Shown here piece after piece: positions 11,501-58,653 of a stretch of DNA of 64,000 nt. The stretch is from contig NC_090698.1 in NCBI RefSeq assembly GCF_040954835.1, positions 66,037,284 through 66,101,283 on the forward strand. The letters run 5' to 3'. A model generated the notes under the pieces. That model did no database searches, was not told where the DNA came from, and saw nothing but the letters and a program-made list of their open reading frames with translations. The DNA is from Lepisosteus oculatus (taxonomy: Eukaryota > Chordata > Actinopteri > Semionotiformes > Lepisosteidae). Within the stretch, counting starts at the first letter, position 1; the number at the start of each line of letters is the position of its first letter. The translations under genes and the position numbers were made by a program.

Positions 11501-11772
11501 AAAGAAATACCGGGACTCCTGCACACGCGGACATTTCCACAGCTTATATTTTACAAATAACACAACACAGCAAGACAAATAAATTGCAGAAAATACACAA
11601 AAACATAAGAAAAAATACACGAAAAATATAAAATATTTGAATATTTTATTATTGTGAAAAGAAAACGTTTCACGAGTTTCATGAAGTCAGCTATCTGCCT
11701 TACATCCGATGTGATCAAGACGAATGGTGAATATTAAAAACCGAAGGATCGTTGTTTCCTGAAGTTAACGGC

Positions 11773-11803
11773 TTTTGTTTGTTTGTTTGTTTGTTTGTTT
11801 TTA
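11773..11803. repeat. (TTTG)n microsatellite
   Basis: About seven tandem TTTG units end in a T run. Confidence 0.9.
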
Positions 11804-12709
11804 AATGTACACTCAACGGAGGATTCGTTGTCCAAATGCTTTTATCACGTAATTATCATACTAGTCTAACAAAAAAAACACGTAACCTACAATGTCATTG
11901 TTTTAGAGTATACATTTTTTGCTGATCATCCTGAGATTATTTATTTTTTTTGCTGATGATAATCTTGGCACACTACATACTGTATGTACTATAAAAGAGC
12001 AGGGTAGGGGAGGGTGAATTAGAGAAAATAACTAAAGTCCGAATGCAGGACATATTTCCAGCCGCACCACACAATTAAGGTGGACTTCATTCAGCTTTCA
12101 ACAAACAGGTGCATCCAATAAAGCAAATTACTATTCATTGTAACCTCCTGGTGATGTAACCCGAATTGGAGAACTCCCTAAATGCAGGAAATGACAAAGT
12201 TCCAGCAAAGCTTTTGAAATCCCGTTGAACTCTTTGGAGGTCTCTAGCAGTGATACCATATATCTGATCGAAACAAATGCGTTAACCCTCAAGGATTTTT
12301 TTCGTAAACAAAAATAACGATGTTGTTCTGCTGTAATCACAAAATAATACTTTCTCCAACCTAAACTGTCACCAGGAGGTGGTTTTCATATACAGTAGGG
12401 CCTATTCACGCTTTACAACGGTTTGATATAGTCTATATATAGTTATACTGTATAGTCTTATATAAAAGTATGAGGTTAAATGGTTCATGCTAGTATTCAG
12501 AACTATGAAGTTTAATTGTATTTAAATAAGCATCGTCAACTTTTTGAAATGCTGGTTATCCTCAAATTTCAATTATTGATTTTCACCTTATATTAAAATA
12601 TGTATTATATGGTTCCTTTGTTAAAAATGAATATTACATATAGTTTAACTATTTGGGGGGAAATAAAATATACTTTCATTGTTTTAGGATCATGGCATGC
12701 ATTTTTTTG

Positions 12710-12711
12710 TA

Positions 12712-12743
<32 letters not shown>

Positions 12744-12835
12744 TGCTTACACTTATATAGCGCTTTTCTGGACACTCCACTCAAAGAGCTTTACAGGTAA
12801 TGGGGTCTCCCCTCCACCACCACCATTTGTAAATA
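12710..12835 (-). repeat. (AAT)n microsatellite joined to a SINE tail fragment
   Basis: A pure AAT/TAA run at 12710-12743 abuts TTACACTTATATAGCGC and CTGGACACTCCACTCAAAG, then a CACCACCACC stretch. The same junction occurs at 54925-55020 and, without the AAT run, at 62458-62545. These are 3' tails of the long form of the 5S-derived SINE seen at 54920-55470. The microsatellite probably grew from the SINE's terminal repeat. Confidence 0.75.
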
Positions 12836-12869
12836 TTGATCAGCTGTCTTTACCCACTAGACCTCTCCA

Positions 12870-13085
12870 GAATTAACTTATTCATGCGAACCAGAAGCGA
12901 GAGCAGGCTGTGTGGAACTGCTTTAAAAACGGGAGGCATTTGTTTACACAAACGGTTGTGGGAGCATGGAACAAGCTACACGGTCACCGCTGGAGCCCAT
13001 ACCCTGACTTCTTTCAAAAAACATTGGACGAGATCATCGAATGAACTAGCTACTGACAACCAACCAGGCAAGATGATCTGAATTC
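12870..13085 (+). repeat. Unclassified dispersed repeat, copy 1
   Basis: The segment includes ACGGGAGGCATTTGTTTACAC, TGTGGGAGCATGGAACAAGC and a CCAACCAGGCAAGATG end. A diverged partner lies at 51700-51930 with the same order of blocks. The 81-residue open frame across it has no recognisable domain, so I treat it as transposon-derived. The class is unknown to me. Confidence 0.5.
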
Positions 13086-14119
13086 GTCGTAGTATTTTTA
13101 ACGTCGTCTTATGTATATCATTGAAACCTTTTTCTAAAATGAAGTATAATCTTTTTACTACTGATATTGAATATTGATTTTTTTTTCATTGTCAGGATGA
13201 CTTACTTTTTTAGCGATTTGTGTATCCACAAATCAAAAGAAACTGTTTTTAGAGAAATTGTATCAATCTATGAGTGTTTATTGACACCTTGTGGTCAAAA
13301 GTTTAAATTGCAGATTTTTTATCTTATTATCAAGTCTTTCCTGTACAGCAAATGAAAATGATCGAAGTCTCCACACTGTGGGCCCAAGAGCGTCCTTTGA
13401 GAGAGAGAAGAAAAGATTGTACTAAAATACAATACTACTATTGTAGAGCATTTTAGTAACCTGTAATGAAAACATCCAGCAAATCAATAAAAAAATAAAG
13501 GTTTTGTTAAGTACACCAGAAAAGCCATATTTTGTACAGATGCTAGCCTTTTCAGTTTCATTGTTTCGCTCGCAGTTCATGGTTGGAAATTTTACTGTGT
13601 CACATACTTAACTTTTTAACAGGATAACAGTGTAGGTGTCTAAATGTTTAACGTGAACTAGTTTAAATACAAATGCTGGTCCGGTTCATCTCGGTTATAA
13701 AACACTGGGCTGGTGAGTTTGACCAGAGGTTGTTAACCTGACCATTAGATTAAATTAGATTATTTTTTATGTATTTAATCTGAATTTATTGTCTCCGAAA
13801 CCCAGTGACGCTCCTGCAGCTGGGTTAGACACACTTTCAGTACGCCTTCTGTTTCCAGCTGCAGGTAGGAACATTTACGAACTGTTTTTTTTGCAGTACC
13901 ATATTTTGAACAGCTGCATTGGAAAATGATTCTGACAATGGTTCCCCGCAGTGGCATGCAGGTGATACCTCCTTCCAAAGAGAGGAAGTACATCATAGAG
14001 CCTCCCAGGAGCGGGAAATTACTGACACCTGACTCATCTGCTCTCCGCTGTCAATAGACATCCTGGCTCTGAGGCTGAATTTTACCCAGGGGCAGAGGGA
14101 GACCAGACACAGCCATTGA

Positions 14120-26900: not shown

Positions 26901-29732
26901 GGGGTCTTTCTGTAAGCAGTTCTCAAAGCCATTCTCATCACTTTCATTGAGGCATTCACACCCAGATTTGTTAACGAAGGGCATGAGGTCCATCTGTAAT
27001 GCCAGACAAAAGATATGGACTTTTGGAGGTAAGAGACTACTTTTTCCACATACAGCATCTGGGCAGAATATTAGTACATTTACTAATACTGACACAGACA
27101 TTCCTTCGCTCATGCTACTGGTAGGAATGCACTCAGCCTCCCAAAACATTTTCTGTCACTGGATTTAATATTAAACGAACATCCACCCATCTTGTCTATA
27201 TTCTGTCAAAAGCTTGCCATTAGGCATAAGCCTTTCCTTTCAATTGTCAATTTTTAAATATGCAAGAGAACAGCTCTTCTACCTCGAACAGCTTTCGCTC
27301 AAATCTGTCACAATCAATACCTGCAGTAATCTCACAAACATGTTTTCATCAAAGAAAATGTTGGGGACATGAAGTCTGGATGGGAAGGGCCACAGATCCC
27401 ATCACTCTATTTGAGGAAATGGAATAAAAAATAATATGGAGCAGGCCTATCAAACATCAAATGCCTATTTCCACATCTGCCTCATAATCAATGCTGTGCT
27501 TATAACTGGTGCTTGTGGTAGTACTGTCAACACAGGAACCACTAAAATGTACCCAGTTAACACACAGCTTCTATGTGTAAAATAAGAGTAGGAGGTTAAG
27601 CTTTGGGTTAAAGGTAGTGTAAGAGAACTGATAGGCACTTATACCCCGCTGCACTGTAGTGGCACAGACAACACCCTCCAAAAGCAAAACTGTCAGTTAT
27701 AAAGGCCGGGGTATGTGATAAATCATTGTTTATCGCCCAGTAAAGAACAACTTTATTTTTCCTGAAAACTGAACCCAAGAACCGGTAACGATGGATCCTG
27801 CGCAATCCCTCCGCCCACCAGCTAGAAAAATAATTTTGACAAAAGAACCCCACTGGCAGACATTTTGTCAGAAGCCGAGTCATCGGAGCAAACTTCTTAG
27901 CGGCCCCCTCATGGCAATCTTTATACTTACGTATCCTTTGGGAATATCGGAATCCTCGTTGCTTCCAGGGTCATTTTCTAGATGCTGTTTTATCTTCTCC
28001 TCTAGCCCTGAGGCATCCGCCCCCTGGTACTGATCAACCTTCACTTTGTTTCGGAAGAACAGAAACGTAGGCGTCGCCGATATATTATTTGCAGCAGCAG
28101 TGGCCTGAATGAAGAGCGGGAAGCACATATAAGCTTGTGTGACACACACACATAGAAGTAGCACTGCAACTATGCACGCAGAGGTGGTCCGACTACATGT
28201 TAGTGGAGTTACAGTGCAGTTTTCCAGGTGATTATCTTACAATGTTCCAGCCCAACTCACCTGGCACACATGCACGTCCACCTCCAGGAACATAGCCTGT
28301 GGGTATTTATTGCTCAGCATATTAAAAGCAGGAGCTATTCTTACACAGGGCCGGCAGCTGAAAGAAAGGCAAAAAAAAATGTCAGTAAGCATCACTGAGA
28401 GCAGCGCTGAGATTCTAAGAAGTAGAGGCTTGCTGACGCTAAGGATCATCCCAAAACGTTTTTCAGTTACAAATGACTTAATGAAACTAAAAAGAAGCTG
28501 AATCCATGAAGCAGAAAGAATCCATGAAGCATTTACTAGGACAAATACTGAAGCATCATCAACATTCAAGTAGGGAGCTGCGTCAGCATGCGTAGGCTGC
28601 AAAGGAACAAGTAAAGATTTATTCCATGCTGAAAAGAAAAAAATACGTTACGGCTGTAGTCTTCTTCATACCCGAAACGTTGTTTCTCTTTTCTTCTCTT
28701 TTCAGCATGAAATAAAGCTTTACTTGTTCCTTTATAATCAACATTCTGCAACAAAGTAACAACTGAATTCGGAATTGGGACCGTTTTCATTAAAACCAGT
28801 CAGGTGTTTACAGAATAGATTACTTTGTATTTTAACGTTTTATCTATTGGATAATCCAAAACGCTGGTGTGTATAACTTTGTAAAGATGCTGCTTATCGA
28901 TTTGATTAAAGTCACATTATATCTGAAGATTTACCAAATGAGCTTGAAAAAAACTGAGACGTTTCTAGTTAGCTATTAAGTAGTTCATCAATTATTAACA
29001 TGAATGAAACACGTTACGTAAAACTACAAATTACTGGAACCAATTTCATCCAAGATTCACTCAACTAGAGTCTGCGAGAGACTGGCTAAATGTTATACGA
29101 TTCCATGTTCGCGCGGTGTCAAAATATTAGTGTCGAAATATTGGGGGGGGGAATGAAATCCTGAATTAGAAACAACAACTTCTAATGCAATGAAACAAAG
29201 CGATAGATACTTGTTAATGCAAATACCAAAGCACAGACTTACACCACGACCGTAACACGATCACCAAAAGAAACAGTTTCACTTTTAAATTCAAGGGTAG
29301 CAGCTCGCTACATCCGAGATTCAAATTACTTCTTAACGTTTGATCACGACTTCGGTAACAGCCCCGTTTTTATTAATTGAATTCTTACTGACGTACTTGC
29401 TACCCCACTTCAATGTAGCTTTGTATTACCAATACTTTGAGAACACGAAATACTCTTTTAACTTCAATGATCAGAGAAATATACTATTTTTATTTTATTG
29501 CTATTAAATATTCACGCGTGTGCATTCATTTTATTTTATTGTTTTCCAATCATGTTAATGGAATTACTTTCTTCGCTAAGAAAACAATGCCCCGGCTCTC
29601 GCAATGAAGCCTGGGACTAGATTTCCGCCCTTACCCAGCCATAGTGAACTTGACTACGGCGAGTCTGGAGCCGGCGCTTGTAAGTTCAGGCTGGAATTCA
29701 GAATCATTCCCGATTACCTTCACCCCGACCAT
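17992..29732 (-). CDS. TXNL1: Thioredoxin-like protein 1, complete in 8 coding exons
   Basis: TXNL1 is a cytosolic thioredoxin that docks on the 26S proteasome through its C-terminal PITH domain. Coding exons on the minus strand: 29635-29732, 28261-28357, 27931-28104, 26871-26993, 25381-25450, 23851-24023, 20847-20951 and 17992-18021. All have AG/GT borders and join in phase to 289 codons plus stop, the length of human TXNL1. The thioredoxin domain is about residues 1-105; its redox site, split between exons 1 and 2, is C34-R-P-C37, where human has C-G-P-C. The PITH domain spans about 115-285, with blocks such as GCECLNESDE, FINLPRSMDF and LRYVKFQNVNSVT. The tail VVGKKGESH matches the human tail. 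Start chosen: MVGVK, the family start. No frameshift seen. Confidence 0.97.
18780..19140 (-). mobile_element. Tc1/mariner transposase relic in TXNL1 intron 7
   Basis: On the minus strand a 62-residue frame (18842-19030) contains VLEWSSQNPDLNP, the hallmark block around the last catalytic acidic residues of Tc1 transposases. It is followed by YREEWQNLL and LVETYP, also typical of the Tc1 C-terminus. Stops and frame breaks surround it, so it is a dead fragment. No intact inverted ends were found. Confidence 0.8.
20095..20230 (-). repeat. 5S-derived SINE body fragment in TXNL1 intron 7
   Basis: The blocks CAGTGGGGAGGAGAACAGAG, AGATGGGGATTATT and GGAAATTTGGACAGGACAC match the middle of the minus-oriented copies at 6150-6270 and 55080-55180. 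Head and tail are absent. Confidence 0.6.
22687..23530 (-). mobile_element. Degenerate Tc1-type transposon in TXNL1 intron 6
   Basis: A 229-residue minus-strand frame (22706-23395) retains pieces of a fish Tc1 transposase: a helix-turn-helix-like start (SQATLSKVMSAWNSKG), a VVQDD block near the second catalytic acid, and ICMSRPSQSLDLRPVKN corresponding to the usual WPSQSPDLNPIEN. Key residues are changed and part of the middle is scrambled, so it is a pseudogene. Inverted ends of 14 bp (CAAGTATGGCTTAT at 22687-22700 and its complement at 23517-23530) frame it. It shares the TXNL1 transcription strand. Confidence 0.8.
28574..28740. repeat. Fold-back repeat in TXNL1 intron 1
   Basis: Arms 28601-28636 and 28698-28733 are inverted copies differing at 2 of 36 positions, around a 61-base centre containing CCCGAAACGTTG. 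The lead-in GGAGCTGCGTCAGCATGCG also opens a second copy at 48760-48905. It should form a strong hairpin in the pre-mRNA. Confidence 0.85.
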
Positions 29733-29860
29733 TTTACGTAACACGCAACAGACCGCTCACAAAGCAAAGTTCCCAGAGTAATGTGTTAAAAAAATTATAC
29801 TTTTCCACAGAACGAAGCTAAATAAGCCTGACCCTAAGCAAAATAAAACAATATCATAAA
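29580..29860 (-). promoter_or_regulatory. TXNL1: TXNL1 first exon and promoter region
   Basis: The region around the TXNL1 start codon (29730-29732) is richer in CG dinucleotides than its surroundings, as expected for a housekeeping gene. I see no TATA box. The transcription start is not defined; this is placement by position only. Confidence 0.4.
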
Positions 29861-30904
29861 GTCACTTATCATGCATCAAACACTTCTCGGCAAATCGCCT
29901 GCTTGACGGCAACAATGCCACTAACCAATCGGATCCTTCCGATTCAAAAGGGGTGGGATTATCGCCCTTAGTAACGGGGCAACTGCCCTGGTGACTCTGG
30001 GAAATGATTCGCGTAAAAGACTGCAGATAGTCGCAAAACTGCCGAAAAGTCTTCAGCAAGCGTGTTGTCTGGAGTAAAAGGAACTTTCTGTTTCTGCAGA
30101 GTCACGAGTGTCTTTTTGTGACATGGAAAGGCGATGCGGTATCCAGAGGTTAAAGCCAGGATACATTTTTTCTTCATTGCTGTAGCCCATTTTTCAAGGA
30201 AACTGTATATACTGTCTGTTTTATAGGTTGGAGATTAAAAGAATGCTGAACAATGTAGTTCATTTCACTGAGGGAATTTTCCAAAATGGAGTTACTGGGA
30301 TTGTAGAACTTGAATATTAAGTCTCCCAAGACACGGAAGTAATCCTGCGATCTCGTATCAGCCTCTCAAACCAGAACAATTAGTAGATTCTGATTCGTTT
30401 TAAACTTTAAAAGTAATTTACATTTTTTTTAGTCTTACACGTTTTAAGTATCCTTGCTTACCAATATGGTTAGACACAACTGATTTGCTATGGCTGTTTA
30501 AAACTCCGAATTCTTCATCTGAATTTTGGCATCCGGTTTGATAATTCAAGAAACGGCAGATTGATTGTAAATCGTATCGATTGGGCAGCATGTACTTCCC
30601 AAGTGTTCCATGTGGACTTCTGTGTGTTATTTTTTGTGTGTGTGCGCATGAAATAAAAATCTCTGGGGCTCATTAATGGTACCTAGGACCTACAAGTGAG
30701 CAGGCCCGCTGACCTGCCCTGCTAAAACCCACGTGTTCCTTTCTTCCTACCTGAATTTGGACACCCCATGCAGGCTTCTCGAGGGATGCGACTGGACACA
30801 CGTGCTGCTTGCTGATTGAAGGGTGATGCTGCGACATTCTGTACCACAGTTATTGATTACGTGACCTCTCCCCTTTCCTAGCCCCACTTGTTTCATGTGA
30901 TAAT

Positions 30905-31185: not shown

Positions 31186-31577
31186 AAGCAGGGGGAAGCC
31201 TTTCCTCCCCCTCTTTCACCCCATGTGTGTCCAGTGGATGCCTGTGTGTCTTTCTCTGCCTTTCCAGCTGTTTTCCTCTGCCCCTGATCCGCATGACCCT
31301 CTGGAAACGTAAATGGCAATCAACCTGTGTGAGCCTGATGCACCTGCTCTGGCCTGTCTTTCTTCTCCGCCTGCACTGGGCAAAAAGGAGCCACTGGGCT
31401 TGTGGAATTAAAATATTAAGTCTTTTAATATCTGTTTTCATACAGGACACAGGAATTCTCAAATCCCATACTTCTTGTAAACCAGAACAACGGGTAGATT
31501 CTGCAGCATGCAGGAAAAAAACATTGTCGTAAAAACATGTTTAAAATACTTTAAACCCGTAAGGTTTTGTTGGCACC

Positions 31578-31950
31578 TATATATCCCTGCAACCCACTGA
31601 AGCTCAGCAGGTGGGAGCCTGGCCAGTACCTGGATGGGAGACCTCCTGGGAGAGCTAAGGTTGCTGCTGGAAGAGGTGTTAGTGGGGCCAGTAGGGAGCG
31701 TTCATCCTGCAGTCTGTGTGGGTCCTGATGCCCCAGTATAGTGATGGGTACACTATACTGTAAGAAAGGCGCCGTCCTTCAGTTGAGACATAAAACTGAG
31801 GTCCTGACTCTCGGTGGTCATTAAAAATCTCAGGGTGATTCTTATTTGTGAGTGGAGGACGTGTTCAAAGTGGAGAAGCGGCTTCACTGACGCGGCTCCG
31901 GCAGTATAAAACAGGTTGATTTGAATAAAAGCGTCCGCCAGATAATAATT
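31578..31950 (+). repeat. 5S-rRNA-derived SINE, copy 2, alternative tail
   Basis: The head is 5S-like: AAGCTCAGCAGG (A box, 31600-31611) and CCTGGATGGGAGACC (C box, 31629-31643), separated about as in 5S rRNA genes. The body shares CAGTATAGTGATGGG and CATAAAACTGAGGTCCTGAC with the copies at 6150 and 54920. The tail differs from theirs: it ends AATAAAAGCGTCCGCCAGATAATA, which resembles the 3' end of L2/CR1-type LINEs. Confidence 0.8.
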
Positions 31951-32253
31951 GTCGTACGTTCTCCTTACCTTTTATCATTTAAACAATTCTTTACACAAAT
32001 TTTACACATTTGAATAACCCCCCAAAAAATGTTAGGTAGAAGCATATACGGAGAATTCAAAATATGCGTTTTTCACGTTGCCATTGGCTAGGAATTGATA
32101 CTGCGCACCTCGTCTGCAGTCTTTCAGTTCCAAAAAGCAAACTACTGTACAAACCGAAACAAAGTTTCTGAGCAGAGCTAGGTAAAATACCAGTAAGATG
32201 CCATACAAATTGATTTTATTGACACTTGTATCGTTTCACTCTCCGGACAAGGG

Positions 32254-32275
32254 ATCGTTCTCGCGCGAGAACGAT
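32254..32275. promoter_or_regulatory. 22-bp perfect palindrome upstream of predicted gene
   Basis: The central bases are TCTCGCGCGAGA, flanked on both sides by matching ATCGT/ACGAT, giving 22 bp of perfect dyad symmetry. It resembles the TCTCGCGAGA element found in many vertebrate promoters, with one extra CG in the middle. It sits 92 bases before the predicted start codon at 32368, in a locally CG-richer stretch, and fits a promoter or 5' UTR site. Confidence 0.5.
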
Positions 32276-32367
32276 TTTCAATTTTTCAACTGACACATTT
32301 GGCGAAGGAGGGAGAAGTACAGTATAACTGTACGGAGGGGTTTTGTTAAAAACAGACAAACACGCAA

Positions 32368-35300
32368 ATGTTTAAAATGTGCCTTTCTGAGAAGAATCTC
32401 GTGAGTTTGTTTCTGATGACCTTTGTTTTACAGTCTGCCGATGCCCTCATTTCAGGTAAATTGCCAACACTCCTCATCTCGCTATTTAATGAGTAGTTAG
32501 GTTTTCTTCGCTAAAATGGGACCCACTAAAAGGCCTCTTGCAATTTAAACAATTAAATCTAAATTTTGCCTCATGTACAGTAGAACCTTGCGGTTTTTTG
32601 CACCCCCTTTTTATTCGTGCCCAACCTTTTGAGACCCCAGTTTTACTCGTTTGTGCGGAGACAGGCAAGCCTATCATCACTGATCATTTTGAACCGGTTT
32701 AAAAGATGAAAGGGGAATTTATTATTTAATGTTTTATGTCAATGTTGCTCAAAAGTTTGGTATTTTAGTTAGGACCTTCATATTTTTCTCAGTATTGTGG
32801 AAGATGAAAAAAGTGCCACTTGGTGTAAACCAAAAAACGTTTTTTTTATGTCCTGTTCCCTAGAGAAAGTACCCATCTTATTTCCAAAATTCCAAAAGGG
32901 TAAGTATATGTCAATTATTTTACCAATGCTGTAATTAAAAATACTGTACTAAACTGTTCTGCGTATGACCCTTCAGTGGTTAAAAAAGTAAGTTGTTTTC
33001 TTATTTCAACAGTTTTATATTTGCTTCCACGATAATGATATATCAGCCTGTTTCTTGCTTCTTCTTTCTTAAAGGCCAATGGCCCTTTACAATAGAAGGG
33101 CGTGAAGAGTAGCTTGGTAACATCATCACTTTCACTAACCACTTATTTAACTCGGGGTCATGGTGGCCTGGAAGCTATCCTGGGAAGTACTGGGCACAAG
33201 GCAGGTGTCACGCCCCACACTCTCCCTCGCAAACGACGTTACATTCCCGGAACCTCTGCTTCCCAATCTCATCCCTGATTGAACCCAGCACATTCTCACA
33301 TGCATCAGATTCCTCAAATTCTCACTCCCAAACCAATCATCCAATCACACCCCTTTCCTTTCAGTATTTAAACCCCCTTCGCACACCTTCCCATGCTTGC
33401 TATTGAGAAGCCTTTCTTAGTATTCTCCAGTGTGTGTTCCCAAACCTTTTGACTGATCTCCTGTTACAAATCTTCTGCTTCCTCCTCTTGACCTCGCCTT
33501 CTGGATTTTGCCTTTGAATTGTTTTGGATTTCTCTCGTTACCGGACCCTCTGCCTCCCTTATCGACCCAGCCTTTGGATTTTGTCTTTTGGTTTGTCCCT
33601 TTGCTACTGTGTCCTGTGGGATTCCGGTCATGCACAAGGATCCTTCTATTCCACGTATCAGTTCCGTGACAGAATAGTGAGCCTTATTAAAATGGATCCA
33701 GCGGACCAGAGTCAACTTCCTATTCTCCTTGAACACTCCTGGAACCTGGACCTGCTAACTATGGCAGTCCAGCAACTAGCTGACCACTTTGCACTTCCAC
33801 CGTCTCCCCCACCTGCAGCTCCTGCCCCTGCACCCCCGCTTCAAACACAACTAATCTTTTACCCCCTCTCCTCCCGGGAAAAATTTGATGATGACTCCTC
33901 CAGTTGTCAGGGCTTTCTGACTCAATGTCAGATGGCTTTCCACATCCGCCCAGACTGCTTCCCCACTGATGCATGTGGGAATGTGCTGGGTTCAATCAGG
34001 GATGAGATTGGGGAAGCAGAGGTTCCGGGAATGTGACCTTGTTTGCGAGGGAGAGTGTGGGGTGTGACAGCAGGATACTCCCTGGATGGGATGCCAGTCC
34101 ATTACAGGAATAGCTTGGTGCCTTGGCTAAATTGCACAATCTGCCCTTCCTACATTTCCACCTAATTTGAATTGGTGAAGTAATTTCTAGCTTGTATAGT
34201 GTACAAGTAATTATTTTGTTAGTGTTATTTTATAAACTTAAGTGTATGATGATCCCTTATATAACAACAGGAAAAGACTAGAAGATTATAATTAAAGAAA
34301 CTGGAAGCAAACAAACTTGTTCTGTTATTTTTGTTATTAATTAAATATTTCTAATGCAATGTGCGAGATTAATTGAATAGATGATTTGTATTGGGAATGC
34401 CAAATAACTACAGTAACCTATCACACTTACGGACATATGGAATGAGGAGGTAATTCTACATCCACCATCAGGATATCCAATAACACAGGTCTGAATTTGT
34501 TGCATGTTTTTTTTATATATTTTTTTAATTTAGATATTTCAGCAAAGACTTACTCCAAACAAAGAAGGCATTATGCTCATTCTGAATTTTTGAATCCACA
34601 TTCTGTGCCAAAAGGCTCAATTATTGGTCCAGACAAAAACAAAACCGGACAAATAATTGGAAGAGGTGGTGTAAGTATCTTACTTTTGTACAGCTTCATT
34701 TTGTACGGATGAAGTAGATTGTATGAACATGGAGCACAAAATCAACATGATCTACTTATTTGTTTCAACTAACTGGTTTAGAGGCAGAACACATGGAACA
34801 TCCCATATCTGTTCTTTAACAACATCCATTCATACATTTTTCTAACAGTTTCTCCCAATTCAGGGTTGTGGAGGAGCTGGAGCCTATCCCAGTAAGTAAT
34901 GAGCACAAGGCAGAGTACACCCTGGTTGGGCTTCCAGTCCATCAAAGTGAACATACAGACACAAACACAGATACACATGCACCTAGGGCCAATTTTCCCA
35001 GAAGCCAATTAACCTACCAGTATATTTTTGGATTGTGGTAAGAAACTGGAGCAACCAGAGGAAACCCAAGGGAACATGCGTCTTTAACCACATAGGTTTA
35101 TAATATAAATGTTTCTGAGCAGTGATGAAATGGGCATGTTTAAGTAAGATAGAAACCATTCTATTGTCTTTGAGAAGTCTTCAGCTGTGTTTTTTAAACT
35201 TTAAAGTGATTATATTTAGCAACTACTGTATAACTATTTGAAAAATGTTCTTTTATGTTTTTGCACATCTAATGTTTTGGTATCATTTTCTTAATTATTG

Positions 35301-37090
35301 TAAGATATGCAATTAGATAAGCTTATTAATCTGTAGTTAGGTTTGTAAGGTGCTAAGCTATAAATAGATATTCAGTCATTAGTATACTGTACATGCTCTA
35401 TATGAAAACTAATTTTTCCCTTTGGTCTTACCCATGTCCTACAGACCTTATTGTATTCTTATTTCTGGTTAGTACTGTACATTGGTTTGCATTAGCCTTT
35501 TCTCACATTCTTCAGCTTTTGGTGAATTTCACCCTGCTTATTCTCAGTAAACAGGATTGTGAATACATCGAAATACATCATTTTGTTTTTAAAATGTGAC
35601 TTTGTCTTGAAAGTGGTGCTCCCTTAATCATCAGGATGGAAGCCTACCATACATCACCCTTCATGGCTAATTCATGCACTATAAATTAGATTAATCTTTT
35701 TTAAAGCATAGGTTGACAGATAATTCTATATTCTAGAGGTGCATAGTAATACTGTGCCTGGTTATTTTGAAATTAATTATCTTGACTTTTTACCTCTTTA
35801 AAAGACGTAGAGGGATATATTTTTTTAAATAAAATGAATAACTCAGATTCCAGTAATTACTTAGTTGTCACTGATCTTGTGTTAATTTATTATAGTGAGT
35901 GAGAACACATAATTCCAGCTTCTTAAAAAACCTTTTTGTGTTTGTTACATTTTTTGCTATTTAATCTGATTAACCTGTATAGTACAGTATATCTCTCTTT
36001 CTATGTTAAACTACTTACAATAACAATAACAATGTAAATTAAATTGTTTATAGAAAACACAATTTCTGTTTTCAGCAGCTTCAGCATTTATCTGTGGACT
36101 ACATTGAACTTTTTGAATGTACTATGTATCTTGAATGTGCCATCTATTGCTTTGTGCTTTTGTATGGATTATTGCATTTACCCATTTGGAAAACTGTAAG
36201 TACTATTTTGAAATCCAAATATTGTTTTTTATTTGGTCATAATAATGGAGATTGCCATAGTTTTTACTGAAATATAGCACCCAGCTGTAATAGAACATCC
36301 TGGAGTGTGAACAGTAGTTTAACTATCTGTGCTATGGCCATAATCAAATGAGCTAGACTAAACATTTAAATCTAGAAGTATGCCCTCTAGCACCATAAGG
36401 GCTTGACCTGTTAAAAGTTTTACATCAATAAGTTTGTATTGCAGCCTTCTCTGTTTTTTGCCAAAATGAAGGTTTTCGTTGTGTTCCTTGTAAAATCCTT
36501 GGTAGATGTTAAGATTTCCACAGTTCTCAATCTCAAGTATTTTTCACAAACAATATAGTTAATTTTAGAAGTCAGCTTGAGCAAATGAATGGCCCTTGAC
36601 TACTGTTTCTTCCTCAATCTAATTCATTTGAATAATTACAATTAAATGTTTTTTGTTTAACATTTCATTCCAATACACATTTCATTTTTGGAAAAATAAC
36701 ATTTTAAAACTTTTCTACACATGTACCAACAGTTGAGCCACACATTTGCAGATACTGTATACAATCTGTTTCCCAGCATAAGAATGAATGTCTCTTCAGT
36801 AGGTAATGCTTTCTAATGTTGGGAAACTGTCTGGGCTCATTAATATTCATATCACAATCATTCATAGTAGCTCATACAAAACACAAAATTCATGTGTATC
36901 TGACTGTCTGCTTTTTTTCTTTTCTATGCAGATGATTAATAAATTGAAGAAGAGAAAGGTTGAACCAGAGCTTGACATGTATAACATGGCAACAGTCTTA
37001 GATAAAAAAGATTCAACTAGCCTTAAACAAATGGCGTTTGGATCAAGTGCAACTATGATGATGTGTGTTGAGTCTGAAGAGTTTCTATGA
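32368..37090 (+). CDS. Predicted small type I membrane protein, family not recognised
   Basis: Four exons join in phase: 32368-32455, 34534-34670, 36076-36195 and 36932-37090, with donors GTAAAT, GTAAGT and GTAAGT and ordinary AG acceptors, giving 167 codons and TGA. Residues 1-26 look like a signal peptide with an A-D-A cleavage motif. The outer part has a basic K-Q-R-R site (38-41) suited to proprotein convertases, and one N-K-T sequon at 65-67. Exon 3 supplies a probable membrane span (about 96-113, CAIYCFVLLYGLLHLPIW). It is followed by a positive stop-transfer stretch (KLKKRK) and a Ser/Met-rich acidic tail ending EEFL. AATAAA lies 15 bases after the stop. It stands between TXNL1 (opposite strand) and NARS1. 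I do not recognise the family. Exons 1, 2 and 4 look good; exon 3 is the least certain. Confidence 0.5.
33148..34130 (+). repeat. Dispersed fish repeat, copy 3, split by a retroelement
   Basis: The left part (to 33205, ending CTGGGCACAAGGCAGG) and the right part (from 34070, GCAGGATACTCCCTGGATGG) rejoin into one copy of the repeat also seen at 34826-35075. The retroelement at 33206-34069 therefore inserted after this repeat. Confidence 0.75.
33206..34069 (+). mobile_element. Ty3/gypsy-type fragment with inverted LTR ends
   Basis: The element starts TGTCACGCC and ends GTGTGACA, flanked by a 5-bp direct repeat GCAGG (33201-33205 and 34070-34074) as expected of integrase-made insertions. The left LTR-like part runs to about 33668 and is followed by a plus-strand frame (33693-34036) that opens MDPADQSQ and contains REKFDDDS and GFLTQCQMAF, resembling the start of gypsy Gag. 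No protease, reverse transcriptase or integrase is present. The last 104 bp (33966-34069) are an inverted copy of the first 103 bp (33206-33308), not a normal second LTR. It is a truncated, non-coding relic. Confidence 0.8.
34826..35075 (+). repeat. Dispersed fish repeat, copy 4, in intron 2 of predicted gene
   Basis: The blocks GGTTGTGGAGGAGCTGGAGC, CAAGGCAGAGTACACCCTGG, TTCCAGTCCATC, CCAATTTTCCCAGAAGCC and AATTAACCTACCAG occur in order, the full middle of the repeat. It lies 155 bases downstream of the exon 2 donor. Confidence 0.8.
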
Positions 37091-37104
37091 CCTATAAAGC
37101 ATAC

Positions 37105-37110
37105 AATAAA
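37105..37110 (+). terminator. Polyadenylation signal of the predicted membrane-protein gene
   Basis: AATAAA begins 15 bases after the TGA at 37088-37090. This supports exon 4 as a terminal exon. Other AATAAA hexamers further on could serve longer 3' UTRs. Confidence 0.5.
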
Positions 37111-40100
37111 ATATAGTATACCATAAACCGCTACAAAGAAATGTACTATGCGATTACATTTATGTTTGAAAAGTGTATTTTTATTTTATTGTTACTTTTT
37201 TCGCAATGTAACATTTTAAAGATCACATACTGTAGCAGTAAATATAAAAGATTAATACTAAAATATTCAAAAAATATCATATTATATTTTTTATAATGCT
37301 TTTGTTACTAGAATTAATTTTTAAATTTGAGGAGATGCATTATGTAACCGCTGTAAAAAAGGAAAGTGCTAGATACAGTATATTCAAATTCATTGTCAAT
37401 ACCAAGATTAAGTTTACTTAGTAGATATGCATTTTTCAACTGAATGACATGAGTTATTATACAGTTATGTAGTAATAAAGTATGAATTAACTATATGGTA
37501 AATTGGAGGGGGAAAGACTAGCAATAAAAGACTTAAACAGGCTTACTTGCAAATTGCAAAAAGTCACAGAACTTACCAAAGATGCCTTAATATACAGTGT
37601 TTTTCTCACATTTAAAAAGAGATTTGTGAAATTTCTGAATCTCAGCTATGAAATGCTTTGCTCAGTTTCCAAGAGCCATAGTACTTAGCATGGGTTGGTC
37701 CCAGTTGGTTTAGTTTTACAATGTAAGCAATTTTGCTCAGTAACCAAAATCCGTCCTTTGACTTCTTAAGATGACCAGAAACAGAAACACTGAAAGTAGA
37801 AGAAGATAATAAAATGAAAAGACTGATAATAGGTAACTAAAATGGGTCATGCTCACTTTTTGTATTACTGCATCATTTTAAGAATATTTTCAATTAAAAT
37901 GTATGTACTTAGGCAAAACAAAATAATTCAAAATTAAGCCAACTATTGTTCAAACTCAGTATGTTCACAGATGCAACTCGATCCACTTAACCTAGTGGGA
38001 AAACCTGAATGGATACAAATGAGCAGTTTTTGATGTGCCATGTATTAAGAAGCAACTGTTCCATACTAATCTGTTTGAGTCATGGAAGTGATTCTCCATA
38101 GGAGAATCTCCATAGGAGAGGAAATGCATTTATCAGTTTTTCTGTATACTGTATTTGAAAAAAAATTGCCTTTATCTTGGAAATATTTCTAAGATGAACA
38201 GAAACTACCATAAGCACGTTCTTACATGGGAATCAACAACAGTTCTTGCTCAAACTATGCATGTACATTATGTATTGAGGCACTGCGACATACACTATAT
38301 AAAGAAAATAGTTCAGGTCAATGTACAGAGCCTTGCAGGAATCTACATGAAATTTGTGATAAATATGAAGTATCATTCACTTGAGTGTACATGGATTTGC
38401 TTTGCTTTAAACCAAGGAAGGACACAGCCTGAGAGGCCATCTTTGGTTTCAAAATGATTAATAGGTATCTGATGGTTGATACTGTCATAAGTATACGTAA
38501 AAATAAACATTTTATACAGCTTTTGATGAAGCAGATGCAATTTGACTTACAGTATGATGAGGGGTTCAGCAATACTGACAAATGAAAAATATGTAGTGGA
38601 AAAAAACCATTTTGGCTTACTTTTCATCTACTGTTGACAATCTCAACCGTTAAAAGGAAGCTAGCTTTATTTAACTTAAGGCCATGGGCTACCTGCTTCT
38701 GTTCATGGGGTTGGGTAGCATGGGTTAATGAATGGAGCCAGATGACATCTCGTTTCCAGTAAATCAGATTTTATCAGGCAGTGACTCCTGTACGCCAACT
38801 CAGCAACAATAGAAGAACACAGCATTGATTACAGGTTACAAATTGAAGACAGCAGAATAATCTCCTTTAGTACTTCTAGAATTCTGTTACCTGGGAAAAC
38901 TGACTTTTGAAGTGGAAACAAGGTTTCATGGATACTCAGCAACTGTATTATTTAACAAGATTTAAAAAAAATCAACTTTGAGAATGAGGGAATGAAATAC
39001 ACAGTGTGTATGTATAATTAATAGAATACCAACAAATCTGAAATACTGCTTCCCAATGCCACTGGGTATAATATGAATCAGTAAAACATGGCATAAAAAT
39101 ATTTTACATGTATTGGCAAACCGCAACTGACACAAAAAATAAATAAAAGCAAGCGTATGTACACGTTTCTAGGAAAATGTACAGTAAGTTTCGATTCAGA
39201 CGATACACCAACTTGATTACTTGCAGTGGTCCTCAAACTGTTGTGCTCAGAAGGGGAAATTTCAAAGACGTGTCTAATAACAGCACAGCCCGATTTTCTG
39301 ATGCAACTATTCAGTGCGCTTGCACGACGGAAGTGTTTGGAATGCTAAATATTCTGAGTAGCGTGAGTTAGTGTGTGTATTCCGAATTATCTATTTACAT
39401 GCATCTGGTTTTCTCATATTTCGGGTTTATTTCCCCTTACTGTAAGTGTAAACTATCAATTAAATATAAGAAGTTTTGCTTCCCAATACAAACCAAAGAG
39501 CATGATTTTTTGTAATAAACTACTTTTATTACACTTGTTTTTCCACACCCTGGCATTTTACGTTTCTTTAACAACTGTTACTAAAGCCGTACTGTAGCTT
39601 TTACACCAGATCAAAAGCACCTACCATACCTGATATCATACTGTACATACCCCGGCTGTCGCACCTACGCATCCGTTTAACTTTTGTGGCTTGAGCCTCA
39701 TCATGGGCATGAATACGCCCGTTAAGACTCAGGTCTGGGGAACTATTGAGAAACGTCTCACCCCCAATATCTAGAATACCCAGAGCAAGACTGTTCCCTG
39801 AGACTGTATACATACAGTACATGTTGAATTTAATTTTCTTAATACTAGTGGAATATGACGGATTTTGAGAACAGCTCAAGCATTGTTGTTTCCATTCTCT
39901 TTTTAACTACGGCGCCCCACCTGTTTACAAATAACCATCGACAGCTTTGTTTTCGGTACTACGGAAAACAGTTTAGAGTTGTGATGTGCAGATGTGTTGT
40001 ACTATATTAACATTAAAGCAGTAACAAGCGAAAGCGAAAGTATTCCATCAGAAAGACTTCCTAATAGCTTTGGGGTGTCTATCTGACGTTATCCTGCAAT

Positions 40101-40385
40101 TCAACCGCCCATGAGCGTATTGAAGGTGGAGCGACTGCAAAATATAAGTCTAACAGACAAATCAGCTTTCAGAGTTTGACGCTAACAGGGCAACGATGAA
40201 AACACACCAATAAAACAGCAGGGCGGAACCGTATTGCATTAAAGCTAGTTTGTGCCGAGACGGCCGGTTGAGGCACATGCACATACTGTACGCTCGGTAG
40301 GGTAGGCGTATGAAAGGCAGTTCTGTTTTCTGTTTTAAACACATATGACATAAAAGGTAACGTGTAAACCATTCGTGACGAGGAC
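37111..40385. other. Intergenic stretch before NARS1
   Basis: AT-rich DNA without a recognisable exon or repeat family. There is a short tandem of GAATCTCCATAGGA-type units near 38093-38120. The last 300 bases before 40386 are richer in CG and probably hold the NARS1 promoter and 5' UTR; no TATA box is evident. Confidence 0.5.
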
Positions 40386-43300
40386 ATGGCCGACGAAATC
40401 ACTGAAAACGCTGAGGGACTTGCAATCGGTAAGAAGTCACTTTTTTACATTAGCTACAGTAGGTAAGCAACTCTGCGTGTTGCATCATCTTGCGCTGACT
40501 GCAGTCGCCTCTGAGGCGGGTGTAGAAAAGTCTTTCCTTTGAATCAGTTGCGGGGAATTCTTAAGTACTTGATTTCCCCCCCGTAGATCCCGTGGTTTTC
40601 AGATGTTGTGATATTTCTGTATTTTGTTTTCATTTTGCCAGTCACCGATAGCCGTACTTACACACTCGCTTCCCTTGAGATATCAAAGGCCCTCCTGATA
40701 ACGCGCAAGCTCGGTGGTGGCCATTCATCATCAAGTACAGCGATCTACTGTCAACTGCTTTTTTCATATTAAGTAACCTAGAGGATTTTAAAGCTATTCA
40801 AGAGGTAAATATTATGAAAAAGAATGTGTTTAAACCTTATAACACAAAAGGGAGAAAAGGTATTTGAGATTGGAGGTCCCATATGTATAGTATGAACAGC
40901 TAATGTTACCATCTGTATACAGTCTGTTGACATTCAATAAGTAGGTTTCTTCAGCTACGTAGATACAACGTGAAGCAAATATATAGGACTGATTTAGGGT
41001 CTCGGTACTCCGTTGGATTAAGAAATGTAGGGAAATCGTCAGCAAATATATTGTACAGCGCTGGTAAACCGGCTCGAACAACCTGCAATGGTGGTCGTAT
41101 GCGTTACAATATCCTGGTAGTGTCTGGATAAAAGGCAAAAGGTTTAGTGCCTTTTACATGGCACTTGGAACATGGGGGTTGCACATCAGTTACAGGCTCA
41201 CGGGAGAGCTAATGATCTGTTTGAACCATCCTAGTCCGGTTCTTGTCTCAGTGATATCACTGAGATTGCTCCTGTGAATGTTTTACTTATTGCGTCTCAC
41301 TTGGGGAGGTCTAAGCATTCTGCCCCTTGATTTTACTGTGGCTTTTGAGACAGTTCATCTTTCACTGGCTCTCCAGTTCCTGTACACATTCTTGTCTATC
41401 GCTGGTTCCACTCATACCTGACTCATATCTGATCGACAGACGGCTCCTGTCAATCATGGTGTGCAGTAGGGCTCAGTCCTGGGTCCTTTGCTTTTTATTA
41501 TTTATGTTCTTTATATTCTTTCTTTATATTCTTCCTCTCGGTCAGCTTATGTGCAAACATAGTCTTCAGTTTCATTGTTAAGTAGATGATAGTCAGATTT
41601 ATGTTAAAACCTCGGTGCGGTGGCTCTGTGGCTAAGGATCTGCGCCTGTGGCTGGAAGGTTGCCGGTTCGTATCCCGCGGCCGGCAGAGGAATCCTACTC
41701 CGTTGGGCCCCTGAGCAAGGCCCTTAACCCCAACTGCTCCAGGGGCGACGATAAATGGCTGACCCTGTGCTCTGACCCCAAAAGCTTCTCTCCCTGCCTG
41801 TGTCTCTCATGGAGAGCAGGTTGGGGTATGCGAAAAGACAAATTCCTAATACAAGAAATTGTATATGGCCAGTAAAGTGATCTTATATTAACCTCTTCCC
41901 CCACTGATCTCATGACTCTGTCACTTATCCATTGTCTGCGTGACATCAAGCTGTGGTTGACATCACATTCCCTGAAGTTAGTGACAAAACAGAGATTTTA
42001 CTGGTGGGCAGCATATGTCAGTTGGAAAAAAGTTCCCGAGTGCCTGATTCATGCTTTTGTAATATCGAGGCTTGATTTCCGCAACTCATTACTCATTCCT
42101 TAACAGTCTTAACAGTCTCAGTAAGACTTCTGACTCACACTACACTCTGGTAATTTATCACTCCTGCACTTAAATCTCTATATTGGTTGCCTGTAAAATC
42201 AAGTATTCAAAATAACATCTTGTTACTGACTTTCAAGGCTCAGAATAATCCGGCTCCATCATAAATCTTTGAACTCCTTCACATTTACCCTCCCTCCTGT
42301 AGGCTCCACTCAATTAAGGCTGGTTCTTTAGGTCACTGAACCTAAAACTAAATGTTTTCTTGATGACTAAAGTTCATTTTGTCCTTAATGTTATTTACAT
42401 TAAGCTCTCCGGCTCATTTTCAGCAAAACGTTGGTCTGTGGTAAAGATGATGATATTAAATCAGTAGGTTGAATCGGTTTTGTGCCACAACTTAATTCAC
42501 ACGTGAAGAACTTGATTCACGTATGTGTAATGGATTTGCATGTTTTCCAAGTAATGGGACCTTGTGGCTTATACTTAAGTAGTAATGTATTATTGCACAT
42601 TTTTATCAAATATGTAAGAGGTCACAGAAAATAATTTTACTTCATGTGTATGGCAATAGGCTACCACAGTATGTGGTGAACTCAATAATTGTGCATATGT
42701 GTGAAACCATTCTAGAACGGTGCAGCAGTGTGTAAAGTTGCGAAGCTAGATTCCAGTTAACTTGCTCATTCAATTGACCAACAGAACGCTCGAGAATGTT
42801 TTCATCTTTTCTGCTGATACAGGAGAACTGTATGTCTCTGAAAAGGAGGGAAATGATTCTGACGCTGATGGAACGCAAGAGAAGCCTTTTAAAACGGTGT
42901 TAAAGGTAAATGATGAACCTTTTTGAGGTACCTTTGTAGAAAGACTGAAAAACTGCCTGTTTCCGTTCCAATCAAATTTGGCCCAAACAATATTAAAATG
43001 TATATAATTCAACCCACAGGATACGTATTTAATATAGATATTTAATGCAAGCCAAGTCATTACCAATTTCTATCTGCTGATATTATTCTTAACATAACAC
43101 TAGATAACATCTCATATAAAATGGGGCAGGTCAGTGTGGTACACTGTTGCTTGCTAGCACTATGAATACTGACTTTATCTTTGCCAATATGAATTGAATC
43201 CACAGCTATTGATGGTTAAGCAGTACAGAAGTCAAAATTAGTAACAATTTATTTTCATTCTGAGGTGATGAATGATAAAAACTCTATAGCTCGCACAAAG

Positions 43301-46300: not shown

Positions 46301-49300
46301 GAATTAAGTTATTTTGTCCTGACAGAAGACTCAGGGGCACTCCTGGACCCTGGGTACTAAATTCTTGTGGTAGAATGTCTGTTTCTGGGTTTCAGTGCTT
46401 CTGTGGTCTCTTTGCTGTGGATTGACAACACACCCCCATTCCTCATCCTTTAAAAGAGATATTACAAACTGTGGCTTTGGTGCTGCTGGGAAGCAGTGTA
46501 TTTCTTTTGGGAAACAGCCTTGACTTAGAATGACTTTCTGTTTTGTTTTTGTTTTTTAGGGAAGAACTTGATGTTCATTGTAGTGAGGGATGGCACGGGC
46601 TTTCTTCAGTGTGTGTTGACGGATCAGCTGGTACGGTATTATGCTCTCACCCCCAGTACGGTTGTCTGACATACTGCAATGCATGACTCTTTAAACCTTG
46701 ATCTTCGGTCCAGAAAGAATAGTGTTACTGTTATTTTAAATAGTCTTCGTCATCACGCAAAGCCTCATGAGACAAGATTGTTAGTAGTGAAACGCCAAAC
46801 TGGATGTTCTTATCCTTCTGTCCTTGATTATTTCTTCCTGGTGAGGAACTAAGGGTTGATTCTTCATCAGGAAGCAGGTTTAAATAATAGGGCCCTGACA
46901 AGAACTGTAACACTACGAGAGATGATGTCAACATCGCTAAAAACATTCTCAGACTGCCAGGCATGTAGATGTATTTTCCTAAGGTTAACATTGCTGAAAG
47001 TGTTTGGGGGAAAAACGTTTGAGATCTGAACTTAGATAAGTTAGCCGTTGTCGACTAATTTTATTCTGGACTTGGGTTACCTTGTTAGGACAGGTGTGAG
47101 TTCTGTCTTGGCTCACCTTCAATAAAACTGTTATTTGATGGTTCGTATCCTATTTATGACACCCCCCCCCTCAAATTACAAGTGTGTTAAAGTAGAATTA
47201 CCCTGCTAAAAGTCAGCGGAACAGGATAATAAGTGCTATGATCTCTTTTTTTTTAATTGAAGTTGTCTTTATTGGTATAAATTGTGAATAGTGGTGAGAC
47301 TTGTTTTGTTTTTAGTGTCAAACCTACAATGCATTGGTCCTGTCCACTGAAAGCACTGTTGCACTCTACGGAACATTGAAGGCTGTACCAGAAGGAAAGC
47401 AGGTAAAACATTGATATCTGCAGATTTTTTTTAAGGGCTTAAGAAAATGCCTGTGAAGTGTTAAAAGATGTACAATATAACAATCTGTGAATGAGTAACA
47501 CCAGTAGCAAGTCTGGCGGAGCTCTTTTAGGTTACAATATTTACAAGGCAGCAAAAACCACAGAATCGTCAGATATCTTACTGAGTCTAATTGATTGCTT
47601 TTTGTAGCAAATATTTGTTCTTCTTAATACCAGCGTTTGTTAATAATAAGCCCCATTTTTCTCCCCAAAACTCCTTTTTTTAAAGTCATACACTTAAATT
47701 TGCATTAAGCATTAGGAATGTGCAATAGATTTTGGTGTTATAAATAAAAAGGAAATGGACCCAGTGTCATAGTTGGCATTATGTAGAGAGTTCAACAGTG
47801 TTTCTAAAATTAATATTTTGTAGTCGTAAGGTTCTAGAACTGTTGTAGGAGCATGGATACCAGCTTGTCTACCCGGACTGTGAGGTGAGATGCCCTTGCT
47901 AGGTGTGGTGGCTCTTGTTTGGCAGGCACCTGGAGGACACGAGCTACATTGCGATTACTGGGAGCTGATAGGATTGGCCCCAGCAGGGGGCGCTGATAAC
48001 CTGCTGAACGAGGAGTCGGACGTAGACGTCCAGCTCAACAACCGCCATATGATGATCCGTGGAGAGAACATGTCCAAGATCCTGAAAGTGCGCTCCGTGG
48101 TCACGCAGTGTTTCCGAGACCATTTCTTCAGCAGGGGATACTACGAGGTGAGTAGAGCCTTGAGCGGAGTTATAAAGGAGAGCAGCTGTCTCGCGTGGCG
48201 TTTGTGAAGCATTTGGAGACACAAGGGCTTTCTGTAACGGTTGGCGCAGATTTAATTGAACAAATCTGTCAGAAGGGCTGGTTCGCATAGGTGTCGGAAA
48301 AAACTGCACAGCAGATGTCCACGGTGACTTGATCTGCTTTCTCCACCAAAATCTCGCAGTGTGTTTTCTCCTCGGAAAATTAAACCACAGTGAGAAATGT
48401 TAAAGGGAAACAACTGCAGTCCCGATTTCCAGTTAAGCATGGAATTGTGAAGTTTGTGAAAGTACTGTTTGCTGTCACAAGCTAACATTGAAGTTCCCAC
48501 GAGTTGGGATGTGAAATGGCGCTTCCTGCTCGCTAGTCGCCACAACGACTAATGTAATGCGATGCGCAGCAGATAAGAGCGCAGACATGTTCCAACGTGA
48601 TTGGGATGCAGAGTTTAAAAATAAGTAGTATTTGTCGGCCAAACTGTCTTGAAATCAAAAAGAATATTTCTGTTGGATTAAAAGAGATGAATTCACAAGC
48701 CTGCTTCTTGACAATGTAATAAGGCCGCAGCAAGTCACCAGAAGTCTTGTTACCTCCGGTGGGGAGCTGCGTCAGCATGCGCAGGCTGCAGAGGAACGCG
48801 TAATAGGTTTATTCCATGCTGAAAAGAGAACGAAAACGCAACGTTTCAGCCGTGGAGCCTTTGTCAGGTGTGACTCTCTTCAGCATGGAATAAACCTAAG
48901 TCTTGTTACCGCGTTCTGAATCGCAGAACACGGCGCAGCACATACTGTACCTGGAAATTTGGTCTATTTTTTCATTTCACCTTTGTTGCGGTTTGTAACG
49001 CACTCATCAGTGCCAGATCTCTCTAAATATAAAAATAGCATTGCAGTTCCCCTTTAATCCCCTTGTGTTCCCATAGATCACCCCCCCCACCATGGTGCAG
49101 ACGCAGGTGGAGGGAGGCTCCACCTTGTTCAGTTTTAACTACTTTGGAGAGGAGGCCTATCTGACCCAGTCGTCTCAGCTCTACCTGGAGACCTGCATTC
49201 CAGCGCTGGGGGACACGTTCTGCATCGCTCAGTCCTACCGCGCCGAGCAGTCCAGGACGCGCCGGCACCTCTCCGAGTAAGATCAAACCCCTTTTGTCTT

Positions 49301-57536: not shown

Positions 57537-58199
57537 ATGTCTGTATTACTATGAACTATAAGAAAAATGGAGTGTAAATGCTAACTGAGCAACATTACTC
57601 ATTTTCTTCATGTATGGTTTCGTTTCCTTCAGTCATTAACACTCAGTCATTACTTGACCTAAAGCACAGTTTGGCCTGCCCAATGGCTCCAATGGAGAAG
57701 AGACCGGTTGAAGGTTAAATTGTTGGTGTGAGGTTGAGGTAGACTGTAAGTTTGTGTGTTTTACCTTTGGGTTAATCTATAGCCGCAAGTGTAGAGGACA
57801 CAGTCAAGTATTTAAGGAATGGAAATTATCGGAAATCATCCCTTTGTGTATAAAATATTGCCCTTGCCTTCGTATTGATGTAATATTTCTAAAACCACAA
57901 AAACGAATGTTTAAAAAGATGTATTTTAATCCATTAACACCCCGCGTCACATTTGTCACCCAGTATATGAAGATAATAGTGTCGCCAGCTTCACCTGTCA
58001 CTAATTGATCATGGCATCACCGAACAGTGTGAGTCCCGGACTGACTGATTAGAGATGGTACATTTTATTTATTTTATTTTATATTATATATATTTATATA
58101 TATATTTTGCCACGGCGTAACAGAAATTAAAAGCACAATTCCCCAAAAAAATGAACGGGGCCTGACAATTTCATATCTTCGCGGGCCCCGTGACGGAAC

Positions 58200-58653
58200 G
58201 CGTTCTCATCCGGAGAACCTTATCGGAAATATGACATGTAAATTACACGTCCTGGTCCCGTCCAAAAAAAAAAAAAGAAAGACTAAACCTGAAAAATAGA
58301 TGTCACTTCCTCTGGGGCTGGCGTGAATGAACAATGGTCTCGCTCTCTCTCTCTCCGCGCGGCACGGTGTCACCTTCAGCGCAGCTCGCACGTGCGGGAG
58401 GTGGAGCCTCCGGCTGCTCCGGCTGCTCCGGCGGGGCGGGGCCGCGCCGCGCCGCTCTGTCACAGCGCTGCAGACTGTGAAGCCGCGCTGTTCTGTCCCG
58501 CAGAATTTCACGCTTCTGCCCGGCGCTGTGACCGACCCGACTACACAGTTCCGGCCACCTCGGCGGCGAGAAAAGCCACTGGCTCGGAATTGGGAGGAAC
58601 TAAATTCCTGCAGTTGAGCTGGCCAAGGAGGGACGCTTTTGACATTACACAAC
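58200..58653 (+). promoter_or_regulatory. FECH: CpG-rich promoter and 5' UTR region of FECH
   Basis: The stretch from about 58340 to 58600 is the most CG-dense part of the window, with runs such as GGGGCGGGGCCGCGCCGCGC that include Sp1-type GC boxes. It ends at the FECH start codon, 58654. No TATA box is seen near the expected distance. Both strands are open for 100-150 codons here because of base composition; I do not regard those frames as genes. Confidence 0.65.

Follow-up and report, generated by a model that had tools for sequence, protein, structure and literature searches.

What, if anything, is encoded between TXNL1 and NARS1 in Lepisosteus oculatus? The question concerns the interval between TXNL1 (minus strand) and NARS1 (plus strand) in a 64-kb stretch of contig NC_090698.1, referred to here as the window, in whose coordinates all positions are given. 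Wider scans of the region covered 264 kb, and searches of the fish's own genome covered 1.2 Gb. Based on the current evidence, the best-supported reading is a protein-coding gene on the plus strand, and more specifically a single-copy gene in which four exons encode a small type I membrane protein, to which we give about an even chance; that there is a real gene at the locus, with or without exon 3, is probable. Evidence for the protein-coding reading, which was also that of the initial annotation, includes the agreement of reading frames and intron phases, the rarity of a comparable chain of exons in simulated sequence, and the protein-like composition of exons 2 and 4. The candidate gene is a supported prediction. 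Its parts are as follows, with splice site scores ranked among all those of the locus.

32368..32455, plus strand: exon 1, with the start codon and the predicted signal peptide, ending in phase 1; donor 4.4 bits, rank 3 of 281
34534..34670, plus strand: exon 2, predicted ectodomain containing the motifs K-Q-R-R and N-K-T; weak acceptor of -1.8 bits (rank 60 of 263) and donor of 2.0 bits (rank 13 of 281)
36076..36195, plus strand: exon 3, predicted membrane span, 120 nt, phases 0/0; acceptor 1.9 bits (rank 25 of 263), donor 2.0 bits (rank 12 of 281)
36932..37090, plus strand: exon 4, with KLKKRK as a candidate basic stop-transfer, followed by the tail and the stop codon; its acceptor, at 5.9 bits, ranks second of 263
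37105..37110, plus strand: AATAAA, possible poly(A) signal, 14 bases past the stop codon

The four exons, their phases, the 167-residue frame and the AATAAA were all found where the initial annotation had placed them. At each of the three introns the exon before is followed by GT and the exon after is preceded by AG, the phases are 1, 0 and 0, and the joined frame comprises 167 codons and a TGA. The ATG at 32368 is the first downstream of a 22-bp palindrome described below. Exon 2 is contained in a stop-free run of 88 codons, while the two other frames of exon 4 hold many stops. The donor of exon 3 reads GTAAGT and its acceptor CAGCAG, where position 36079 is also possible and scores 2.7 against 1.9 at 36076, so that the product would have 167 or 166 residues. 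For comparison, 14 acceptors of TXNL1 and NARS1 exons recognised by eye range from 0.4 to 7.1 and the donors of these exons from 0.6 to 9.6, and the exon 2 acceptor is the weak point of the gene model. The RNA would be spliced from these four exons and polyadenylated past the AATAAA at 37105, which is one of six on the plus strand within 32368-38500 and by itself weak evidence.

The predicted product has the order of parts that is familiar from small type I membrane proteins, namely a signal peptide, a short ectodomain, a span, a stop-transfer and a tail, and it shares with them the basic residues past the predicted span. Residues 1-26 form a plausible signal peptide with an A-D-A end identified by eye (hydrophobicity, KD19, of 1.73 at residues 11-29), through which the product would enter the secretory pathway, with cleavage after A26. 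An intron of phase 1 after the signal-peptide exon is common in secreted and surface proteins, and intron 1 of the candidate agrees with this trend. Residues 27-93 are predicted to be a short basic ectodomain (isoelectric point 8.9 for residues 27-90) with one N-glycosylation sequon, N65-K-T. The predicted span, at about L94-W113 (KD19 of 1.81 at residues 94-112), is encoded by exon 3, which is itself uncertain; it would anchor the protein and leave a tail of about 54 residues, ending at L167, on the cytosolic side. K119-K124 (KLKKRK) follows as a candidate stop-transfer. The earlier description of a type I membrane protein depends on exon 3, the least supported of the four. The candidate also differs from the known small type I membrane proteins in having no sequence relative in Pfam or PDB, and hence no named family with which it could be compared.

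The suggestion that a convertase could release the outer part of the protein does not agree with the position of the motif. In a convertase-released surface protein the cut site lies between the ectodomain and the membrane, but K-Q-R-R occupies residues 38-41, near the predicted mature N-terminus. Because the last residue of the motif is the 15th of the mature chain (counted from the cleavage after A26, placed by eye), a cut there would free just LISDISAKTYSKQRR and the rest of the ectodomain would stay on the membrane. A convertase, if one acts, would therefore trim a 15-residue propeptide; a K at P4 is not the best context for furin. Exon 3 might also be skipped, since its 120 nt and phases 0/0 would keep the frame intact; the product would then have 127 residues, lack that span and possibly be secreted. 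Overall, the product is most likely a putative accessory protein of the cell surface or secretory pathway.

Coding composition and the rarity of the exon chain

The composition test was conditional on openness, asking whether a stretch already free of stops is also protein-like. The composition of exon 4 was reached by none of 2000 simulations and that of exon 2 by 0.35%, while exon 1 was reached by 9.7% and exon 3 by 80%; no simulation reached all four jointly. Six chosen exons of TXNL1 and NARS1 were each reached by 0 of 500 simulations in the same test. As a control, 1292 real stretches, each of 45 codons free of stops, were drawn from the region's blocks with a GC content of at most 0.40, known genes included. 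Of these, 0.2% reached exon 4 (z of 3.19) and 0.9% reached exon 2 (z of 2.74); for exon 1 the share was 37% and for exon 3 it was 74%. The exons tested differ in length from the 45-codon controls, and one of the controls, the fourth highest, is the end of the frame of exon 4 itself (its last 45 codons). The composition of exons 2 and 4, given openness, is the strongest result for coding.

By composition, exon 3, which encodes the sole span, is indistinguishable from noncoding AT-rich DNA. The model describes soluble proteins and is unfair to signal peptides and membrane spans. With a membrane-span block the score of exon 3 moved from -9.0 to -1.3, a value that 23% of 1500 simulated stretches free of stops also reached, and for these two reasons its composition neither supports nor excludes the exon. 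Hydrophobicity itself comes cheaply in this region, as a KD19 of 1.6 was reached by 197 of 1086 AT-rich stop-free stretches.

The rarity of the chain as a whole was measured by counting chains of four exons of at least 80 nt each, 501 nt in total, whose six splice sites sum to at least 14.4 with none under -1.85. These thresholds were chosen at the annotated chain after it had been seen, a bias in its favour. An equally good chain was held by 2 of 200 simulations. Once its two repeats are excluded, the locus contains two such chains on the plus strand and none on the minus strand, and the plus-strand chain that was printed is the NAGNAG variant of the annotated one. Long open frames are weaker evidence alone: runs of at least 95, 88 and 75 codons occurred in 20 of 1000 simulations, and at least three runs of at least 75 codons, of which the locus has four, in 8.3%.

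Additionally, the locus was scored with a home-made gene finder that uses splice matrices and local composition models. The latter replaced an earlier coding score with fixed third-position weights, which favoured GC-rich DNA and placed true AT-rich exons low. As a calibration, the four top scores among 102 real stretches of 5.1 kb fall on TXNL1 and NARS1. The stretch with most of the locus ranks sixth when unmasked (31.4), and the unmasked runs of the locus took an intron repeat as exons. Masking of the two repeat stretches gives the locus a score of 23.6, a value reached by 0 of 300 simulations of local composition, and the antisense strand scores 3.0. The top chain takes exon 4 whole and exons 1 and 2 in part, adds an extra exon at 32864-32899 and lacks exon 3, and the exact annotated chain scores 5.2 at the same setting. 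The extra element could be a small exon: its donor (6.7 bits) is the strongest of the locus, its acceptor (4.1) is good, and in that top chain it continues the frame of exon 1.

A promoter-like stretch and the searches for relatives

Two features upstream of the start codon bear on where transcription might begin.

31701..32800, no strand: CpG-rich, promoter-like stretch, with a maximum observed/expected (o/e) CpG ratio of 1.08 in 600-bp windows; exon 1 starts inside it
32254..32275, no strand: 22-bp perfect palindrome ATCGTTCTCGCGCGAGAACGAT holding TTCTCGCGCGAGAA, a possible promoter element 92 bp before exon 1

Transcription would start in the CpG-rich stretch near the palindrome. The median CpG o/e of 600-bp windows in the 264 kb is 0.31. 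Nine of the peaks in this region reach 1.0, that at 31701-32800 among them, with values of 1.26 in 31850-32100 and 1.09 in 32100-32350. The first coding exon of TXNL1 lies within a CpG-rich stretch of its own at 27601-30900. Two further peaks, at 38901-41300 and 57601-60400, precede NARS1 and the ferrochelatase gene, and we infer that they are the promoters of these genes. The dip between the candidate's CpG-rich stretch and that of TXNL1 falls in a GC-rich sequence resembling a short interspersed element (SINE), and for this reason the two stretches may once have been one. This sequence, at 31560-31900, is poor in CpG and by eye resembles the 3' part of 5S rRNA, with no Rfam match at the gathering score. 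Another strong peak, at 11101-13700 (o/e 1.06), lies where no gene can be named, so a CpG peak alone is no proof of a gene.

The palindrome is the longest of six perfect ones of at least 18 bp in the 264 kb. The genome contains its 14-base core a single time, so this is not a repeated element; a reversed control occurs twice per strand and is rare too, so rarity proves little. In CpG-island promoters the CGCG element TCTCGCGAGA drives transcription in both directions, and one A inserted into the CGCG abolishes activity (PMC6192621, BANP). The locus shares with the promoters described there a palindrome whose core is CGCG and whose flanks are TCT/AGA, in CpG-rich sequence near a likely start. 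However, it has TCTCGCGCGAGA, which is two bases (CG) longer and is absent from the main text of PMC6192621, and exact TCTCGCGAGA has no occurrence in the 264 kb. The palindrome thus resembles the CGCG element but, given the extra CG and the reported effect of the inserted A, should not simply be equated with it. The evidence from CpG and palindrome is limited overall, because peaks of this kind occur often and no first exon was located for NARS1 or for the ferrochelatase gene (FECH, see below).

Relatives of the product were sought in Pfam, PDB, prokaryote genomes and the fish's own genome, a scope that implies nothing for fish at large. The Pfam profile search returned 0 families up to E 10, and the PDB search no match below E 1, the best being a chance match to an ankyrin-repeat protein at E 1.3. 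Exact peptide words, which reach close relatives only, gave 19 pattern matches in the prokaryote collection and no relative. For the libraries searched, the earlier statement that the family was not recognised therefore holds. In a tblastn search of the own genome (10 candidates scored), each of the four exons was found once, at the locus and with its frame intact, and elsewhere there were just three chance matches (E 3.1, 6.2 and 9.8).

Points against the gene and the rival readings

Several results weigh against the gene as annotated. The exon 2 acceptor lies under all 14 of the TXNL1 and NARS1 acceptors compared, exons 1 and 3 give no coding-composition signal, and exon 3 is absent from the gene finder's top chain. 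Its absence there, its composition (z of -0.8, membrane-aware p of 0.23) and its length, which preserves the frame on skipping, would suit a real gene to which exon 3 is optional or does not belong at all. In such a gene exons 1, 2 and 4, perhaps with another small exon, would encode a basic protein, secreted rather than anchored, with a length of about 96-127 residues. This reading is unlikely: exon 3 has a GTAAGT donor, a usable acceptor and a span of the right length, and KLKKRK behind it would have no clear role unless a membrane were present. Moreover, the composition model that disfavours exon 3 is the one that is unfair to spans, and the gene finder's own 96-residue chain starts inside the signal peptide.

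As to the upstream region, CpG peaks are common (24 of at least 0.65 in the 264 kb), some have no known gene, and the stretch at 31701-32800 could be part of TXNL1's CpG stretch, split by an inserted repeat. In addition, the product has no relative in Pfam, in PDB or elsewhere in its own genome. A noncoding divergent RNA from the CpG-rich promoter beside TXNL1, with an accidental frame, would agree with the missing relatives. TXNL1 does run in the divergent direction, its first coding exon, at 29.7 kb, lies in a CpG-rich stretch of its own, and CGCG elements can act bidirectionally (PMC6192621), although the palindrome at the locus is no exact one. Such an RNA would leave it to coincidence, however, that exons 2 and 4 are protein-like beyond mere openness and that a comparable chain arises so seldom in the simulations, and we regard it as distinctly unlikely.

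The last objection comes from real sequence. An equally good chain is present in 12 of 73 real stretches with a GC content under 0.39, none overlapping the locus and gene-bearing and repeat-bearing ones included, and 17 other stretches of the 102 (unmasked, some with real genes) score at least 23.6. An untranscribed chance assembly of open frames in AT-rich DNA draws on the first of these counts, on the many stop-free stretches as hydrophobic as a membrane span and on the score of just 5.2 for the annotated chain, but is very unlikely given that the locus lies directly downstream of a CpG-rich stretch with a long palindrome, that exons 2 and 4 have the composition they have, and that no simulation reached the score of the locus. 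A host gene for a small RNA is not indicated, because Rfam found no family in the whole window at the gathering score.

Neighbouring genes and intron repeats

The flanks proposed for the candidate gene are confirmed by matches of both neighbours. The frame at 27883-28236 (minus strand) matches a PDB chain named TXNL1 (E 1.4e-31), and that at 47884-48204 (plus strand) matches a cytoplasmic asparagine-tRNA ligase (E 3.1e-45). On the minus strand the first coding exon of TXNL1 starts at about 29732; on the plus strand, coding sequence of NARS1 can be recognised from about 42.8 kb onwards. Past the window lie a ferrochelatase gene (plus strand; Pfam E 4.8e-10), a homeodomain gene (minus strand; Pfam E 1.4e-11) and an alpha-2,8-sialyltransferase gene (minus strand; PDB E 1.5e-40), which we take to be FECH, ONECUT and ST8SIA3, respectively. 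The gene order from about 20500 to 151000, in window coordinates continued downstream, is TXNL1 (minus), candidate gene (plus), NARS1 (plus), ferrochelatase (plus), ONECUT-like (minus) and ST8SIA3-like (minus). In human, TXNL1 and WDR7 are arranged head to head, with NARS1 at the opposite end of the block. Relative to this order, the block from TXNL1 to the ST8SIA3-like gene seems to be inverted. In the literature on the TXNL1 neighbourhood and its synteny, nothing among the matches listed points to a gene in the TXNL1-NARS1 interval.

If the small membrane protein gene is confirmed, it would be an unnamed small gene of the secretory pathway in a fish, within a block whose gene order appears different from human. 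The locus would then test whether an old gene was lost in tetrapods or a young one arose next to a promoter that was already there. Another orphan among the small membrane proteins would be little surprise, and its function would be hard to approach without relatives. A bolder proposal, which we hold to be highly improbable, is a lineage-specific vertebrate surface protein beside the TXNL1 promoter, at the place of WDR7 in the human order, in which exon 3 would act as an in-frame switch between anchored and secreted forms.

Repeat matches in the DNA search fall in introns 1 and 2 and in none of the exons (40 of 5042 candidates scored). The repeat in intron 1, at 33206-34069, has a 5-base duplication (GCAGG) and comprises a part of about 466 bp resembling a long terminal repeat (LTR), a gag-like piece called by eye and having no Pfam match, and about 104 bp of the LTR end repeated in inverted orientation. 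A pattern search for ends in seven other copies found none, and their ends were read by position; all seven run on past the gag-like piece into shared sequence. For this reason the intron 1 copy looks truncated, with an inverted LTR end, and its structure looks like that expected after self-integration. Lastly, TACTGTA is over-represented in the whole window, with 27 copies or 1.45 times the expectation from its 6-mers.

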